This document shows, piece by piece, positions 2,383 through 7,984 of a DNA stretch of 64,000 nucleotides. The number at the start of each line of letters is the position of its first letter. Positions within the stretch are counted from its first letter, which is position 1. The DNA is from Rhodanobacter sp. (GTDB taxonomy: Bacteria; Pseudomonadota; Gammaproteobacteria; Xanthomonadales; Rhodanobacteraceae), in the NCBI GenBank assembly GCA_030148505.1, contig JASBTI010000004.1:1-64000 (forward strand), read 5' to 3'. Position numbers and translations under genes: made by a program. Under the pieces are notes generated by a model, which worked only from the letters and a program-made list of their open reading frames with translations, did no database searches and was not told the DNA's origin.

Positions 2383-4254
2383 CTATTGCGCGTCTTGCAA
2401 CTGCCCCTGTACCTCGTTGATCGAGTCGCGGATGCGCTTGCTGAATACCGAGTCGTCGTGGTGGATCAGCAGCAGGTGTTCGGTGGCGCGGGTCATCGCG
2501 ACATAGAGCAGACGCGCTTCGTCGGCTTCACTCTGGCCCTCCTTTGGCAGCGAGCCGAGGCCGGGGATGATGACGAACGGAAACTCCAGGCCCTTGCTGG
2601 AATGCATGGTGACCAGCTTGACGCTGTCCTCGACCACGAACAGGGTCTGCTTGCCGGCATGATCGGCGAGCCGGCTGGGGATGCCCAGGTCCTTGAGTAT
2701 CGCGTGCAGTTTCTCGCCCTCCCACTGGTTGCGGTAGAGCACGGCCAGGTCGGAGTACGGGCGACCGTGGGCGTGTTCGTCCTGCAGCCGGGCGATCAGC
2801 ACGTCGAGCTGGGCGCGAGCTGTATCGGTGCGTACCAACTCCGGAATGGCGCCACGACGGCCTGAGCTTTCCGGTGCGATCAGCGGCACGCCATCGTCGT
2901 CGTCGCCGCGCGAGGTAAGCAAATCCTGGGCGAACACGCGCGCCACCGAGAGGATTTCAAGGGTGTTGCGGTAGTTGAGCTTGAGGATGGTGGTGCGGCC
3001 TTGCGCCTGCACGCCGAGGCTTTTCCAGCTGATCTTGCGTCGCTCGCTGTCACCGTAGATGTTCTGCGCGTCGTCGTACAGCACCAGCAGCGAGTTGGTG
3101 GACGGGTCGATCATCTGCACGATCAGCTTGTACCAGTCCGGCTCGAAATCGTGGCCTTCGTCGACCAGCACGGCGCCGTACTGAAAGCGCGGAATTTGCC
3201 CACGATCCACGCCATCGATGACATTCTGTACCATCTGCTCGAAGAAATGCTGGCTGCCCTGCGCGGGCAGATCCACGTGGTAGGCCATCAGCATCTTGCG
3301 GCACCACTTGTGGAAGTTGTAGACCTGCACCTTTTCGCCGAGACCGCGCTCCCCGATCAGCTGCTCCAGTCGGGCGGCCAATGTCTTGTTGTAGCAGAGC
3401 ACCAGGATGGGCCTGGAGAGCTCACGCGCGAGCTGCATCGCGCGGAAACCCAGGATCATGGTTTTGCCCGAGCCGGCGACGCCGTGGATGACCCGGTGCT
3501 CGCCGCCGATCGAACGCGCCAATTGCTCCTGTTGCGCATCCATTACCTTGACCAGATCGGGGATCTCCAGCGGTCGCATGGCAGCGTCGCTGGGGCCGAA
3601 CAGGCCGAACTGGCCGCTACCGGCTTCGACCCGCAATTCTGGGAACAAGTGCCAGCGCACCCGATCGATCTGCGGCAGGGTAAGTGCGACCGGAAACACC
3701 TGGGGGAACATCGCCCACAGCCGCTCCTGGAATACCTCCGCGTCGACTGTCTCGTACAGCTCGTCGCGGCAAATCACCAAGTGTTCGGGCAATACCTCGC
3801 CCAGCGTGCCTTCGTCGAATTGCTTGCGGGTGATATTGGCCAGCACCACGCCCCAGGCCCATGGCATAATCAGCTTGCCGGCATGGCGCGAGCCTTCAGG
3901 GTGGCGCAGCGCAGGGTCGCGCTCCAGCACCACGCCGATTTCCAGGGCATAGGCGCGGGCCTGCAACAGCGGGTTGTTCTCCTTGACCAGGCCGCGCTCG
4001 GTGACCAGGGTAAACTGGGTGCGGTCGGCGTGGCGGATAGTATCCGCCTTCCAGTCCTTTACCTCTAACACCAGCAGGCCGCGGCGTGGATGAAATATCA
4101 CGAAATCCGGGTGGCGTTGCTTCAGCCCGACCGGCACGTCGTACCAAAGCAGATAGTCGTCTTCGAGCTTCTGTTCCAGTCGCTCAGAAAGTCGTTTTTC
4201 GCCGCCGCTCATGCGTGGCAGGCAGCTGTGCCGGGTTGGAATGAGCGTGGCCAT
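2383..4254 (-). CDS. NERD-domain nuclease/SF1 (UvrD-like) helicase
   Basis: A 623-aa protein that joins a nuclease-related NERD domain (about residues 15-130) to a superfamily-1 DNA helicase. NERD motifs are D50 in RHPDFVIF and E64/K66 in LVLEVKDWK. Helicase motifs are Walker A at 258-265 (GVAGSGKT), Walker B at 362-367 (VLVDEGHD), motif V (TMHSSKGLEF) and motif VI (LLYVAMTRA) near the C terminus. The ATG at 4254 is chosen because a good promoter lies just upstream at 4284-4311; the open frame reaches 4455. Likely roles are DNA repair or defence against foreign DNA. NERD-helicase proteins with antiphage activity are known (Nhi of staphylococci), but orthology is not claimed. Confidence 0.85.
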   Translation of the reverse strand: MATLIPTRHSCLPRMSGGEKRLSERLEQKLEDDYLLWYDVPVGLKQRHPDFVIFHPRRGLLVLEVKDWKADTIRHADRTQFTLVTERGLVKENNPLLQARAYALEIGVVLERDPALRHPEGSRHAGKLIMPWAWGVVLANITRKQFDEGTLGEVLPEHLVICRDELYETVDAEVFQERLWAMFPQVFPVALTLPQIDRVRWHLFPELRVEAGSGQFGLFGPSDAAMRPLEIPDLVKVMDAQQEQLARSIGGEHRVIHGVAGSGKTMILGFRAMQLARELSRPILVLCYNKTLAARLEQLIGERGLGEKVQVYNFHKWCRKMLMAYHVDLPAQGSQHFFEQMVQNVIDGVDRGQIPRFQYGAVLVDEGHDFEPDWYKLIVQMIDPSTNSLLVLYDDAQNIYGDSERRKISWKSLGVQAQGRTTILKLNYRNTLEILSVARVFAQDLLTSRGDDDDGVPLIAPESSGRRGAIPELVRTDTARAQLDVLIARLQDEHAHGRPYSDLAVLYRNQWEGEKLHAILKDLGIPSRLADHAGKQTLFVVEDSVKLVTMHSSKGLEFPFVIIPGLGSLPKEGQSEADEARLLYVAMTRATEHLLLIHHDDSVFSKRIRDSINEVQGQLQDAQ

Positions 4255-4283
4255 CGGTATCCGGTGTGTTTTCCCTGACAGGG

Positions 4284-4311
4284 AAAGTAGCGAAACCTGG
4301 GATACTGTCAA
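4284..4311 (-). promoter_or_regulatory. Candidate sigma-70 promoter of the NERD-helicase gene
   Basis: On the minus strand a perfect -35 TTGACA (4311-4306) is followed after 16 bp by TACTTT (4289-4284). Transcription would start near 4277, about 23 nt before the ATG at 4254. This placement argues against the longer reading frame that begins upstream of the promoter. Confidence 0.6.
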
Positions 4312-4427
4312 CGTTTTCGAGGCCGCCATACTGCCTGCTTGTTGATAGTCATTGTCATTATCCTGGCCGCGAGATGGTAAAACAGCCTCATTGATTACCC
4401 CGCCGCGTCGGGGGCGGGGAATGGACG

Positions 4428-5627
4428 ATGCCCTTTCGGGTAGAAACACTGTCAATGATCAGCATGCTCCAGGCTGCGGTACTGGCGGTCTTGCTGTGGG
4501 TCGGCACGCATGGTGACGGTCAGATCCGGACCAGCCTGCGGATCCGGGCGCTGGCGCTGGCAGTGGAAGCGGCAGGTTGGGGCACGCTGGCGTTTCATGT
4601 CTATCTCTCCCAGGCGCAACTGGTAATGGGTGGCAACGCGCTGAACCTGATCGCCCAGGCGATGAGCGTGATCGCCCTGCGCCTGCTGCTCGGGGCTCCG
4701 CTGCGCTGGCGGCTGGTGACCGCCATCGCGGTGGTCGGATGGCTTGGCGTTGCGTGGTTCGGTGTGGTGCAACCGGACTATCGCTACCGTGTGCTGTGGG
4801 GCTCGTTGACGATCACCATGAACATGCTGCTCAACGTGGAGGCGCTGACCGACGGCTTTCGCTCGTTTGGCACCCGGGCTCGGCGGGTGTTGCTGACGGT
4901 CAGTTTGCTGGCGGTAGTCTTGCTGGTGTGGCGCGAGAGCCAGTTGTGGTTCGGCAGCGATCAGCCTACCCGCATCAACGTGTCCGATGACACCAACACG
5001 TTCTATCTGGTGCTGTCGGGCATGCAGCCGCTGTTCGCGAGTATCGGCTTTCTTCTGCTCTACAGCGAGATCCTGCAGCAGGCGTTATACAAGCTGGCCC
5101 GAATCGATGCGCTGACCGGCGTAAGCAACCGGCTGGCGATCGATCAATCCATCGCGCAGATGCTGGCGCATGCCCAGAGACAGCACGAATCGCTGGGCGT
5201 GCTGATGATCGACGCGGATCATTTCAAACGGATCAATGATCGCTTCGGCCATGCCGGGGGCGACAAGGTGCTGCAGGCGCTGGTTACCAGTATCCGCGCC
5301 AGTTTGCGTGAGGGTGATGTGATAGGTCGGATCGGTGGCGAGGAATTCGTGGTGCTGTCGCCCGGAACCGACTTGGCAGCGGCGCAGGCACTGGGTGAGC
5401 GGGTGCGGCAGATGGTCGAGCACACCCGATTGCCGATCGACGGCGAGCTGCTGCAGCTCACCGTGTCAGTCGGCGTGGCCGTGGCGGTCGCCGAGGAGAA
5501 AGGCAATGCCCATGTATTGCGGCGTGCCGACAAGGCACTCTATGCCGCCAAGCGTGGCGGTCGGAACCGGGTCATGGTGGCATTCACCGCAGAAGACGGC
5601 AGCCATGGGGCATCGGTCGGCGCTTGA
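4428..5627 (+). CDS. Membrane diguanylate cyclase (GGDEF domain)
   Basis: Makes the second messenger c-di-GMP from two GTP. The 399-aa protein has an N-terminal membrane sensor of about six hydrophobic segments (residues 10-215) and a C-terminal GGDEF domain (about 225-390). The catalytic loop is GGEEF at 303-307, and an inhibitory I-site RxxD (REGD, 294-297) lies the expected five residues before it, so product inhibition is likely. The ATG at 4428 follows GGGGA. The ligand of the membrane part is unknown. It is divergent from the NERD-helicase gene and convergent with the DUF2236 gene, with only three bases between the stops. Confidence 0.9.
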   Translation: MPFRVETLSMISMLQAAVLAVLLWVGTHGDGQIRTSLRIRALALAVEAAGWGTLAFHVYLSQAQLVMGGNALNLIAQAMSVIALRLLLGAPLRWRLVTAIAVVGWLGVAWFGVVQPDYRYRVLWGSLTITMNMLLNVEALTDGFRSFGTRARRVLLTVSLLAVVLLVWRESQLWFGSDQPTRINVSDDTNTFYLVLSGMQPLFASIGFLLLYSEILQQALYKLARIDALTGVSNRLAIDQSIAQMLAHAQRQHESLGVLMIDADHFKRINDRFGHAGGDKVLQALVTSIRASLREGDVIGRIGGEEFVVLSPGTDLAAAQALGERVRQMVEHTRLPIDGELLQLTVSVGVAVAVAEEKGNAHVLRRADKALYAAKRGGRNRVMVAFTAEDGSHGASVGA

Positions 5628-5630
5628 GCT

Positions 5631-6572
5631 TCAGCGCGTCGGTGGAGCGGCACCCCATGTTGTCAGGCTCTGCGGTGCCAATCCGACACGTCGGCAGGCA
5701 CGGCTGGCGATGCCGTCTCTCAAGGCAGCGCGAAATGCCGGGGCGATCGACCACAGCGCAAGCGCTGCCAGTCGCGCCTGGCGCTGTTGCCATAGGGTAC
5801 GCTGCAACAGGTCCGATGCCCACGTGGGCAGCAGGGCAGCGCCAGCGTACAGAAACAGATCCCGGGAGAGTCCTGCGGCCGGCACCGGCAAGCGTACCCG
5901 GGAAAGCAGCTCAAGCACCACGCGCGAGCGCTCGGTAAAGGCAAGTTCCGGCTGGATGCGGCAGAAATATTCGGCCACGGCCTGCTCGGAGGCTGGTACC
6001 TCGCGAGCACCCAGAGCCTCGGCAATCCGGCGGCCTTCACGGTAATACTGATCCGCTGCGCCGGGCGGCAAGCGGATGTGGCTGTAATGGCGATAGCCCT
6101 GAAGAAAACTGTAGGCTTCGGTCACATGCACCCAGGTCAGCAGGTCAGGGTCGTCGGCGGTATAGGGTCGCCCGTGCTGATCGAAGCCGGCAATTTGGGC
6201 ATGGATTTGCCGCACGCGCTCAATCATGGCTTTGGCCTGGGCTTCAGGAGCATAGGTCGTGCCACCGACGAAGGCGGTGGTGCGGCGCAGTCGTCCGAGC
6301 AGGTCATCGCGAAAACGGGAGTGATCCCAGACAGCGGCCAGCGCGCGTGGATGCAGCGTCTGTAGCGTCAGCGCCGCCAGTCCACCGGCCAGCATGCCTG
6401 GAAAGTTTGCGTGAATGCGCCAGGTGGCGCCCGCCGGGTCGAACAGACCCGGATCACCCTGCGGCTGATCATAGTCGACGCCGCTGTCACGATCCCTAGG
6501 AAAGGCACTCAATACCCAATGGCGTAGCGGTTCGCCGACGGTGCGCGACAACAGTTGCAGGGGAGAGGGCAT
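5631..6572 (-). CDS. DUF2236 / MpaB-type oxygenase family protein
   Basis: A 313-aa soluble protein of the DUF2236 family, which includes fungal MpaB and bacterial latex-clearing (Lcp-like) haem oxygenases. The conserved segments seen are FDPAGATWRIH, LQTLHPRALA, FVGGTTYAPE and a His-containing LTWVHVTEAYSF, where the family places its haem or metal ligands. The substrate cannot be read from sequence. The gene appears monocistronic: it converges on the diguanylate cyclase, and the aroG leader region lies upstream on the other strand. Confidence 0.75.
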   Translation of the reverse strand: MPSPLQLLSRTVGEPLRHWVLSAFPRDRDSGVDYDQPQGDPGLFDPAGATWRIHANFPGMLAGGLAALTLQTLHPRALAAVWDHSRFRDDLLGRLRRTTAFVGGTTYAPEAQAKAMIERVRQIHAQIAGFDQHGRPYTADDPDLLTWVHVTEAYSFLQGYRHYSHIRLPPGAADQYYREGRRIAEALGAREVPASEQAVAEYFCRIQPELAFTERSRVVLELLSRVRLPVPAAGLSRDLFLYAGAALLPTWASDLLQRTLWQQRQARLAALALWSIAPAFRAALRDGIASRACRRVGLAPQSLTTWGAAPPTR

Positions 6573-6670: not shown

Positions 6671-6699
6671 TTGTTTGATTTAGCCGTCCGCTGTGCTAT
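6671..6699 (+). promoter_or_regulatory. Weak candidate promoter of the aroG leader transcript
   Basis: TTGTTT (6671-6676) and TGCTAT (6694-6699) are 17 bp apart. Transcription would begin near 6706, only a few bases before the leader-peptide ATG at 6710, so the leader peptide would be translated from an almost leaderless RNA. No Shine-Dalgarno site is seen before that ATG, which fits. Only three of six -10 bases match consensus, so this is tentative. Confidence 0.3.
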
Positions 6700-6709
6700 T
6701 GATACGCCC

Positions 6710-6790
6710 ATGATTCTTTCCGCCGCCCGCTATTATTTTTGGTTTTATGGCTATCCGATGCTGCAGGCGGAGCCAGGGGCGCGATCGTAA
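6710..6790 (+). CDS. aroG attenuator leader peptide
   Basis: A 26-codon reading frame encodes MILSAAR-YYFWFYGY-PMLQAEPGARS. Seven of eight consecutive codons specify aromatic residues (Tyr-Tyr-Phe-Trp-Phe-Tyr-Gly-Tyr), one each of the three end products of the pathway that starts with the next gene. It stops with TAA 22 nt before a perfect terminator hairpin and 93 nt before aroG. This is the layout of a ribosome-mediated attenuator like those of pheA or trpE: stalling at Tyr/Phe/Trp codons when charged tRNA is scarce would prevent the terminator from forming. The frame lacks a ribosome site and may start leaderless. Confidence 0.85.
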   Translation: MILSAARYYFWFYGYPMLQAEPGARS

Positions 6791-6812
6791 AACACCGGTC
6801 AAGATCATCCCG

Positions 6813-6845
6813 AAAAGCCGCCAGCTCCACACTGGCGGCTTTTTT
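6813..6845 (+). terminator. Attenuator terminator upstream of aroG
   Basis: A perfect 12-bp stem (6813-6824 with 6832-6843) encloses a 7-nt loop and runs into six T residues (6840-6845). It sits between the aromatic leader peptide and aroG, 38 nt before the start codon. GGCGG at 6766-6770, inside the leader frame, can pair with CCGCC at 6818-6822 in the 5' arm, which gives a possible antiterminator. RNA folding of the whole leader was not computed. Confidence 0.85.
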
Positions 6846-6883
6846 CATGGCGCCAGTGGAACCCGAATCCGAGGAACCACCGC

Positions 6884-7984
6884 ATGATACTTAGCAGCAC
6901 CATACCCACGCCACAGGGCGCCACCGACGACTTGCGTATTCGCGAATTGAAGCGATTGAGTACGCCGAACGAAGTGATCGGTGATTGCGGCAGCAGCGAA
7001 CGCGCCTGCCTTACTGTGACCGGCGCCCGTAGCCGCTTGCATGACATCCTCAGCGGCGACGATGACCGCCTCGCTGTGGTGATCGGGCCCTGCTCGATCC
7101 ATGACACCCGTGCGGCACTCGAGTACGCGAGCCGCCTGCAGACCGAGCGCGTGCGTCACGCCGACGCGTTGGAAATCATCATGCGTGTGTATTTCGAGAA
7201 GCCGCGCACCACGGTGGGCTGGAAGGGACTGATCAATGACCCCGACCTGGATGGCAGCTTCCGCATCGATCGCGGCTTGCGTCTGGCGCGCGGTCTGCTG
7301 ATCGGCATCAATGACTTGGGTGTACCAGCCGGGTGTGAGTTTCTCGACATGATCACCCCGCAGTACATTGCCGACCTGGTTGCATGGGGCGCTATTGGCG
7401 CACGCACCACGGAAAGTCAGGTTCACCGTGAACTCGCGTCGGGACTGTCTTGCCCGATCGGTTTCAAAAACGGCACCGATGGCAATGTGAAAATCGCCGT
7501 GGATGCGGTGCAGGCCGCATCGCAACCGCATCATTTCCTCGCGGTGACCAAGGACGGCCGCACCGCGATCGCCACCACCGGCGGCAACGAGGACTGTCAC
7601 GTCATCCTGCGCGGCGGCAGCGCCCCGAACTATGACGCGGCCAGCGTGCAGGCAGCTTGTGCCGCCCTTGCCTGCGGTGGCTTGCAACCACGGCTGATGA
7701 TCGATGCCAGCCATGCGAACAGCGGCAAAAGGCCGGAAAATCAGCCGCGGGTAATCGACGATATTGCCAGTCAGCTCGAAAACGGTGAATCCCGCGTGAT
7801 CGGTGTCATGGTGGAAAGCCATTTGATAGGCGGTCGTCAGGAGCTGCGGTCCGGACAGTCGATGGTGTATGGACAGAGCATCACCGACGGTTGCCTCGAT
7901 TGGGCCTCTTCGGTGGAATTGCTGGACCGGCTTGCCGAGGCAGTGCGACAGCGGCGGCGACTTCGAAACCGGCGGGTGGCCTGA
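6884..7984 (+). CDS. aroG: 3-deoxy-7-phosphoheptulonate synthase (DAHP synthase, class I)
   Basis: Condenses phosphoenolpyruvate and erythrose 4-phosphate, the first step of aromatic amino acid synthesis. The 366-aa protein is close in length to E. coli AroF/G/H. Visible signatures are GPCSIHD with the metal ligand C70, the PEP-binding YFEKPRTTVGWKG, a conserved GFKNGTDG, and IDASHANSGK. A GAGGA site precedes the ATG at 6884. Which aromatic amino acid inhibits the enzyme cannot be told from the sequence by eye. Transcription appears controlled by the attenuator at 6710-6845, whose leader senses Tyr, Phe and Trp together. No other aro gene is adjacent. Confidence 0.95.
   Translation: MILSSTIPTPQGATDDLRIRELKRLSTPNEVIGDCGSSERACLTVTGARSRLHDILSGDDDRLAVVIGPCSIHDTRAALEYASRLQTERVRHADALEIIMRVYFEKPRTTVGWKGLINDPDLDGSFRIDRGLRLARGLLIGINDLGVPAGCEFLDMITPQYIADLVAWGAIGARTTESQVHRELASGLSCPIGFKNGTDGNVKIAVDAVQAASQPHHFLAVTKDGRTAIATTGGNEDCHVILRGGSAPNYDAASVQAACAALACGGLQPRLMIDASHANSGKRPENQPRVIDDIASQLENGESRVIGVMVESHLIGGRQELRSGQSMVYGQSITDGCLDWASSVELLDRLAEAVRQRRRLRNRRVA

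Follow-up and report, generated by a model that had tools for sequence, protein, structure and literature searches.

DAHP synthase governs the flow into all aromatic amino acids, and in Escherichia coli it exists as several (three) isozymes, controlled by repressors and feedback. The aroR-aroF attenuator of Corynebacterium glutamicum has a Phe-Tyr-Phe leader, and the accessible text of its description reports a response to Phe, Tyr supply being without effect (PMC11802643). Attenuators have been predicted before aroF and aroH of Shewanella (PMC2659441) and proposed for aroAI-tyrA of Vibrio (PMC1173090, Table 7), and attenuation has been proposed for aroF of E. coli too (PMC1173090, PMC2659441, PMC8632094). 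The Shewanella and Vibrio cases concern Tyr- or Trp-sensitive isozymes or are linked to tyrA, and the available parts of these two sources describe no three-way aromatic leader (PMC2659441, PMC1173090). As far as the accessible portion of the open PMC literature goes, no aroG attenuator is described for Lysobacterales, Burkholderiales or Rhizobiales, and older attenuator studies may describe one. The accessible text of a Burkholderia start-site paper (PMC4603805) makes no mention of such an element, and none is described in the available parts of PMC2965389, PMC1262725, PMC3102044, PMC5784534 and PMC10987360.

The aroG leader and its surroundings

The window (the whole 64,000-nucleotide stretch of Rhodanobacter DNA analysed here) carries aroG preceded by a short leader ORF. 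The ORF starts with the ATG at 6710 and ends with the stop codon at 6788-6790, its 26 codons encoding MILSAARYYFWFYGYPMLQAEPGARS. The features of the locus are as follows.

6675..6680, plus strand: possible -35 element TTGATT (by eye from the sequence)
6694..6702, plus strand: putative extended -10 element TG-C-TATTGA (TGnTA conserved in family leaders)
6710..6790, plus strand: leader peptide ORF MILSAARYYFWFYGYPMLQAEPGARS (sequence, translation; codon conservation in 89 family leaders)
6720..6727, plus strand: segment 1 CCGCCGCC, candidate pairing partner for segment 2 (counts of CCGCC-like sequences)
6731..6754, plus strand: control codons Tyr Tyr Phe Trp Phe Tyr Gly Tyr (translation, conservation)
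6763..6770, plus strand: segment 2 GCAGGCGG, putative antiterminator strand within the ORF (counts of in-frame GGCGG and of core pairs)
6813..6824, plus strand: segment 3, 5' arm of the predicted terminator AAAAGCCGCCAG (sequence, covariation)
6832..6843, plus strand: segment 4, 3' arm of the predicted terminator CTGGCGGCTTTT (sequence, covariation)
6840..6845, plus strand: T run of the terminator (sequence)
6884..7984, plus strand: aroG, type I-alpha DAHP synthase, 366 aa (TIGR00034, PF00793, PDB relatives)

Codons 8-15 of the leader read Y Y F W F Y G Y. The sequence-only reading had pointed to a 26-codon frame with seven aromatic codons among eight before aroG; translation confirms it, and elsewhere in the six frames of the window no place has 6 or more aromatic codons in 8. 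The perfect 12-bp terminator with a T run claimed in the same reading is present as well: AAAAGCCGCCAG (6813-6824) and CTGGCGGCTTTT (6832-6843) form 12 pairs with no mismatch around a 7-nt loop, the T run occupying 6840-6845. A simple scanner did not list this hairpin in the window, probably because the T run was counted inside the stem.

The upstream neighbour, encoding an MPAB_Lcp_cat-domain protein (5631-6572, minus strand), is divergent from aroG, and the downstream neighbour, an OsmC-like gene, is convergent. The terminator at 6813-6843 thus lies in no other annotated same-strand transcript and belongs to that of aroG, so that a predicted intrinsic terminator stands between the leader ORF and aroG within the aroG transcript. 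Further to the left are found a NERD and UvrD-helicase protein (2383-4455, minus strand) and a GGDEF protein (4428-5627, plus strand), both ordinary by Pfam.

The aroG product scores 512 bits against TIGR00034 (cut-off 173), also matches PF00793, and has DAHP synthases as its best PDB relatives, the Phe-sensitive AroG among them. Searched against the window's own genome, AroG gives a single match and PF00793 gives two, AroG itself and a protein scoring as KDO-8-phosphate synthase; a profile search for the type II DAHP synthase (PF01474) gives no match there. On these grounds this genome (rated 99.99% complete, 49 contigs) seems to have no DAHP synthase gene besides aroG, unlike its relatives: PF01474 is present in 192 of the 197 family genomes, and the remaining four without it are 77-86% complete.

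Conservation of the element and of its control codons

AroG is matched in 92 of the 197 family genomes, one of the matches being a fragment. Leaving out this fragment (G105, 57 residues, E = 2.8e-4) and a second partial match in G174, and replacing L022 by a longer fetch (L172), we obtained a family set of 91 loci. An ORF with at least 5 aromatic codons in 8 is found shortly before aroG in 89 of them, with Phe, Trp and Tyr represented in every one of the 89 peptides. The two exceptions are a locus with a weaker run (L124, HVWFYGY) and one without a visible leader (L030). The latter comes from a genome of the same genus (G136; L030/L224), where aroG is present and the element is detectable neither by the peptide rule nor by the covariance model R1.

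R1 was built from 93 sequences over 140 positions. At E <= 1e-8 it matches 91 of the 197 family genomes, once in each; as 42 of the 93 training rows come from the same family genomes, its presence in 90 of the 91 genomes with a full-length aroG vs 1 of the 106 without is a measure of linkage to aroG, not an independent discovery. The sole match without a full-length aroG lies on a contig that ends 86 nt past the element (G167).

A second set, of named loci, consists of the best 80 of the matches listed and comes from Lysobacterales, Alphaproteobacteria, Burkholderiales, one Planctomycetia bin and a few others; three of its members (L031, L033, L037) repeat family loci, so that the family and named counts overlap. 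By the strict peptide rule the leader is found in 73 of these best 80 loci listed. Five that fail the rule and were outside the training set match R1 with 46.8-76.8 bits (L044, L091, L100, L106, L107), four of them with a Y-W-Y-F run, which brings the element to 78 of the best 80 listed. Of the two counted without it, L071 has 45 nt of upstream sequence only, and L082 shows no sign of the element by the peptide rule or R1. The conservation of aromatic codons and hairpin, on which the sequence-only reading had staked its case, is thus found in relatives (89/91 in the family, 73/80 of the best named loci listed, by the strict rule), and the terminator covaries.

Across 249 genomes drawn from the phylum, R1 matches 96 at E <= 0.001, many of the weak matches covering the terminator end only. 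Among the best 30 of these matches, 26 precede a type I DAHP synthase gene (the window's own included), six of them belonging to another family of Gammaproteobacteria (f6), where leaders of the type MQSRNFFAFYFWFSVPGGREARL are seen. The other four lie before a phenylalanyl-tRNA synthetase gene (two), lie before a chorismate mutase gene (one) or comprise the terminator part only (one); Pfam confirms two of the three neighbour genes, one phenylalanyl-tRNA synthetase and the chorismate mutase. The weak matches before the synthetase gene (two genomes) fall on a leader with a 14-letter peptide, which we take to be the pheST leader of E. coli, and the one before the chorismate mutase gene (one genome) on a Phe-rich leader.

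Viewed as a single sequence, with a fold that is weakly special (see below), the locus could be taken for a chance aromatic ORF next to an ordinary constitutive terminator or to the terminator of the upstream gene. This we regard as extremely improbable, given that the upstream gene is divergent and that 89 of 91 family loci show the same layout, as do alphaproteobacterial and Burkholderiales loci. Such peptides are also rare: the 503,574 bases flanking the best 80 named loci listed hold two places with at least 6 aromatic codons in 8, and none with 7 in 8.

No Rfam family reaches its gathering score in the window or in 20 relatives. The 13 sub-threshold matches listed for the window include attenuator leaders (Thr_leader, 23.1 of 55 bits; Phe_leader, RF01859, 17.5 of 55 bits) and sRNAs, with no riboswitch or T-box among them, and it is very improbable that another RNA device of these kinds operates here with the ORF as an incidental neighbour. 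Two families were considered as the same element and rejected: RcsR1 (RF02552), a trp attenuator RNA, with 15 bits only, and BcKCsr7 (RF02884), with 24.5 of 59 bits, a location elsewhere and an Arg-rich ORF. In one genome (G207) BcKCsr7 is on a different contig from both AroG matches.

BcKCsr7 has features of its own. Three Burkholderia loci (L205, L206, L208) combine a hairpin resembling a terminator with a reading frame that contains a run of Arg residues, e.g. MNRFLSALRRRRSPLRPDAAGSSRTRA. In the three of 21 Burkholderia matches that were inspected, BcKCsr7 stands before a gene of the aminotransferase type (Pfam of one); the gene is a class-III aminotransferase by Pfam and perhaps, by eye, an acetylornithine aminotransferase. 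This Burkholderia "sRNA" looks like an arginine attenuator.

Within the control codons of the family, the core TGG is invariant (89/89). Tyr is maintained at columns 10 and 15 while its codons TAC and TAT are split 39/38 and 46/37, respectively; column 10 also swaps Tyr with Phe and Trp, and column 14 swaps Phe with Tyr. The retention of Tyr despite TAC/TAT interchange, together with the invariant TGG, suggests that the peptide is under selection at the protein level. With groups assigned from record titles and three named loci repeating family loci, Phe, Tyr and Trp all occur within the control run in 89/89 family, 18/18 named Lysobacterales and 17/17 alphaproteobacterial leaders, and Trp is missing from the run in 33 of 38 Burkholderiales leaders.

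Two further regularities of the peptide were observed. Phe is strongly biased toward TTT in the leaders vs their own aroG genes (TTT:TTC 209:51 vs 71:380, named loci L031-L110), TTT and TTC being normally read by one tRNA. An Arg codon near the C-terminus (6782-6784 in the window) is CGA in 77 of 89 family leaders, and GCGCGATCG around it recurs in the alignment, possibly as an additional RNA element between segments 2 and 3.

The codons by themselves argue strongly that a single leader would sense all three end products, as the sequence-only reading had proposed, with Trp evidently optional in Burkholderiales. The same attenuator might instead sense mainly one or two amino acids, e.g. Phe and Tyr, the other codons being passengers. 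The aroR leader of Corynebacterium has a Tyr codon, yet in the accessible text it responds to Phe only (PMC11802643), and the 33 of 38 Burkholderiales leaders without Trp indicate that Trp is not needed for the device. Passenger codons would fit poorly with a core TGG invariant in 89 of 89 family leaders and with all three residues held by 17 of 17 alphaproteobacterial leaders, where even those with four aromatic codons (L100, L106, L107) still read Y-W-Y-F. We consider sensing of one or two amino acids a real possibility, somewhat on the improbable side.

A tie between Trp in the leader and a single DAHP synthase was also considered, and is not supported by a comparison of 23 genomes. The type II enzyme is present in 10/10 alphaproteobacterial and Lysobacterales genomes (leaders with Trp) and in 0/13 Burkholderiales genomes, the leaders of 10 of these 13 being without Trp. 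Five Burkholderiales have one type I gene, no type II gene and Phe/Tyr-only leaders (22 of the 23 genomes, G201 omitted).

Alternative pairings and the proposed mechanism

A TGnTA motif lies within 20 nt upstream of the leader ATG in 89/89 family, 18/18 named Lysobacterales and 11/11 Alcaligenaceae-like leaders, and in 0/17 alphaproteobacterial, 0/21 Oxalobacteraceae-like and 1/6 other Burkholderiales leaders. An SD-like sequence is seen in 2 of 89 family leaders, and a consensus promoter scanner reported no promoter before the leader of the window. In the family, the named Lysobacterales and the Alcaligenaceae-like group, the placement of TGnTA fits a start at or next to the ATG. We thus expect transcription to begin at the ATG or 1-2 nt before it, which would make this a leaderless leader mRNA, of which the Sinorhizobium trp leader is a known case (PMC10117765).

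The terminator helix is paired in 93.5% of the cells of a 93-row alignment (L160 was left out when choosing the rows), a value reached by 0 of 500 shuffles. Two-sided changes amount to 46 cells, again matched by 0 of 500 shuffles, and slid versions of the helix (32-63% paired) fall below the true one on both pairing and two-sided changes. The number of pairs with a two-sided change is 4, reached by 36 of 500 shuffles.

GGCGG (6766-6770), within the leader ORF, is complementary to CCGCC in the 5' arm of the terminator (6818-6822), the antiterminator pairing 2:3, or to CCGCC at 6720-6724 or 6723-6727 (pairing 1:2). It is framed as nnG-GCG-Gnn (or GTG) in 152 of the 160 leaders counted; L046 and L069 are absent from this count, having no hairpin by the rule used; both match R1, and in each case the peptide entered in the counts may have been read in an incorrect frame. 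The peptide around GGCGG varies (PLAEEG, KAVEKR, LAAGG) despite the fixed frame, and in the aroG coding sequences of the named loci used only 36% of Ala codons are GCG. Among the eight exceptions, GGCGG is retained off frame in L045 and L075 and past the stop codon in L076; a G-to-A change in segment 2 is met by C-to-T in segment 3 in L050; the 2:3 core has a mismatch in L053 and L081; and 2:3 pairing is possible in another register in L166 and L167.

Each of the five core 2:3 pairs is formed in 91 to 93 of the 93 rows, and the outer pairs of the helix are often unformed in the same alignment. For the 2:3 helix the covariation score does not exceed that of shuffles, 71 of 500 reaching it, because the core hardly varies; what points to a putative antiterminator is conservation, not covariation. 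Segment 1, as CCGCC, CCGTC or CCGCT, is present in 83 of 89 family leaders vs 29 of 71 others.

When the aromatic codons are masked and segment 4 is absent, the 2:3 helix is part of the minimum-energy fold in 151 of 159 leaders; in shuffled-spacer controls an upstream partner of any kind for CCGCC is seen in 407 of 795. In the window, masking the RNA as far as a ribosome placed at codon 8, 13 or 15 would extend yields GGCGG:CCGCC, and covering segment 2 yields the terminator alone; with both the ribosome and segment 4 absent, some other fold is preferred to the 2:3 helix. A gap-free helix scan finds that segment 3 of the window and of some relatives pairs better with the control-codon region (one mismatch) than in GGCGG:CCGCC; full window folds return to GGCGG:CCGCC despite this preference. 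The GGCGG/CCGCC antiterminator put forward in the sequence-only reading is borne out by complementarity, by the framed GGCGG and by these folds. When 6700-6884 was folded as a whole, as that reading suggested, the result was only a little better than for shuffled sequence (z = -1.81, equalled by 8 of 200 shuffles); the masked folds yield either the 2:3 helix or the terminator.

Taken together, we judge it very probable that the element is a ribosome-mediated (trp-type) transcription attenuator of aroG, responding to the charging of aromatic tRNAs. Transcription would begin at the leader ATG or immediately beside it, with a ribosome following RNA polymerase and translating the leaderless ORF. 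Poor charging of Tyr-, Phe- or Trp-tRNA, even of one of them alone, would make the ribosome stall at codons 8-15, cover segment 1 and leave GGCGG (6766-6770) free to pair with CCGCC (6818-6822) before segment 4 is made, so that no terminator would form and aroG would be transcribed. A ribosome footprint reaches about 12-13 nt downstream of the A site; with the A site at codons 8-13 or 15 the reach is at most about 6765 and GGCGG stays free, so lack of any one charged tRNA should open aroG.

With all three tRNAs charged, the ribosome would cross segment 2 to the stop codon at 6788, segment 3 would pair with segment 4, and transcription would terminate before aroG. Since 17 nt separate segment 2 from the stop codon downstream of it, termination in the charged state would have to depend on timing, the ribosome moving past segment 2 while segments 3 and 4 are emerging, or on segments 1 and 2 pairing in the ribosome's wake. 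This is the part of the mechanism that we hold with the least certainty, segment 1 being poorly kept outside the family.

The terminated leader RNA could also, or instead, act in trans as a small RNA or be the source of a functional small peptide, like rnTrpL/peTrpL of Sinorhizobium. The available text on that system describes a trp attenuator RNA (RcsR1/rnTrpL) acting in trans (PMC7143759), from a leader that is likewise leaderless (PMC10117765). For the aroG leader we think such a role unlikely, as control in cis already explains the conserved features.

Relation to known attenuators

The trp, pheA and pheST attenuators share the logic proposed for aroG, in the order control codons, antiterminator, terminator and structural gene. 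Their leaders address one amino acid each and serve end branches of the pathway or a synthetase, whereas the aroG leader has three mixed aromatic residues and stands at the first common step. Leaders with mixed control codons for several amino acids are found in the ilv and thr operons. Like the aroG leader, these attenuators read several amino acids of a branched pathway in one leader; the pathway and the sequence differ. The sequence-only reading stated that known attenuators of the pheA and trpE kind usually sense one amino acid; mixed control codons do have precedents. The Caulobacter ilv leader has Ile and Val codons in the accessible description (PMC4117421).

Such an element may be of use in several ways. 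A single short RNA seems to register all three products of the pathway, aroG being the only DAHP synthase gene found in this genome, and it offers a system for asking how a ribosome trailing RNA polymerase sums several tRNA signals. Being conserved, the element can also serve as a marker when aroG is annotated in Lysobacterales, Burkholderiales and several groups of Alphaproteobacteria. We find the arguments evenly balanced for a broader view, by which a widespread and often leaderless proteobacterial family would form an OR gate over Tyr-, Phe- and Trp-tRNA charging at the first common aromatic step, re-tuned in Burkholderiales by codon replacement (Trp input mostly absent) with the RNA switch unchanged.

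Among elements before DAHP synthase genes, the uORFC-13-1 motif of Acholeplasma resembles the aroG leader in having a predicted uORF and a terminator before aroF (PMC8632094). In the accessible part of that source, it differs in being known from Acholeplasma and environmental sequences only and in having at least one Phe codon, with no mixed run described. The nearest known case is aroR of Corynebacterium, which shares with the aroG leader an aromatic-codon peptide placed before a DAHP synthase operon, where stalling raises expression; unlike the aroG leader it is actinobacterial, has no Trp codon reported in the available text, and responds to Phe (PMC11802643). As far as these partly accessible sources go, ribosome-mediated attenuation of DAHP synthase genes is known, and the apparent novelty, which older literature may hold, is a proteobacterial aroG version that would address all three aromatic amino acids.
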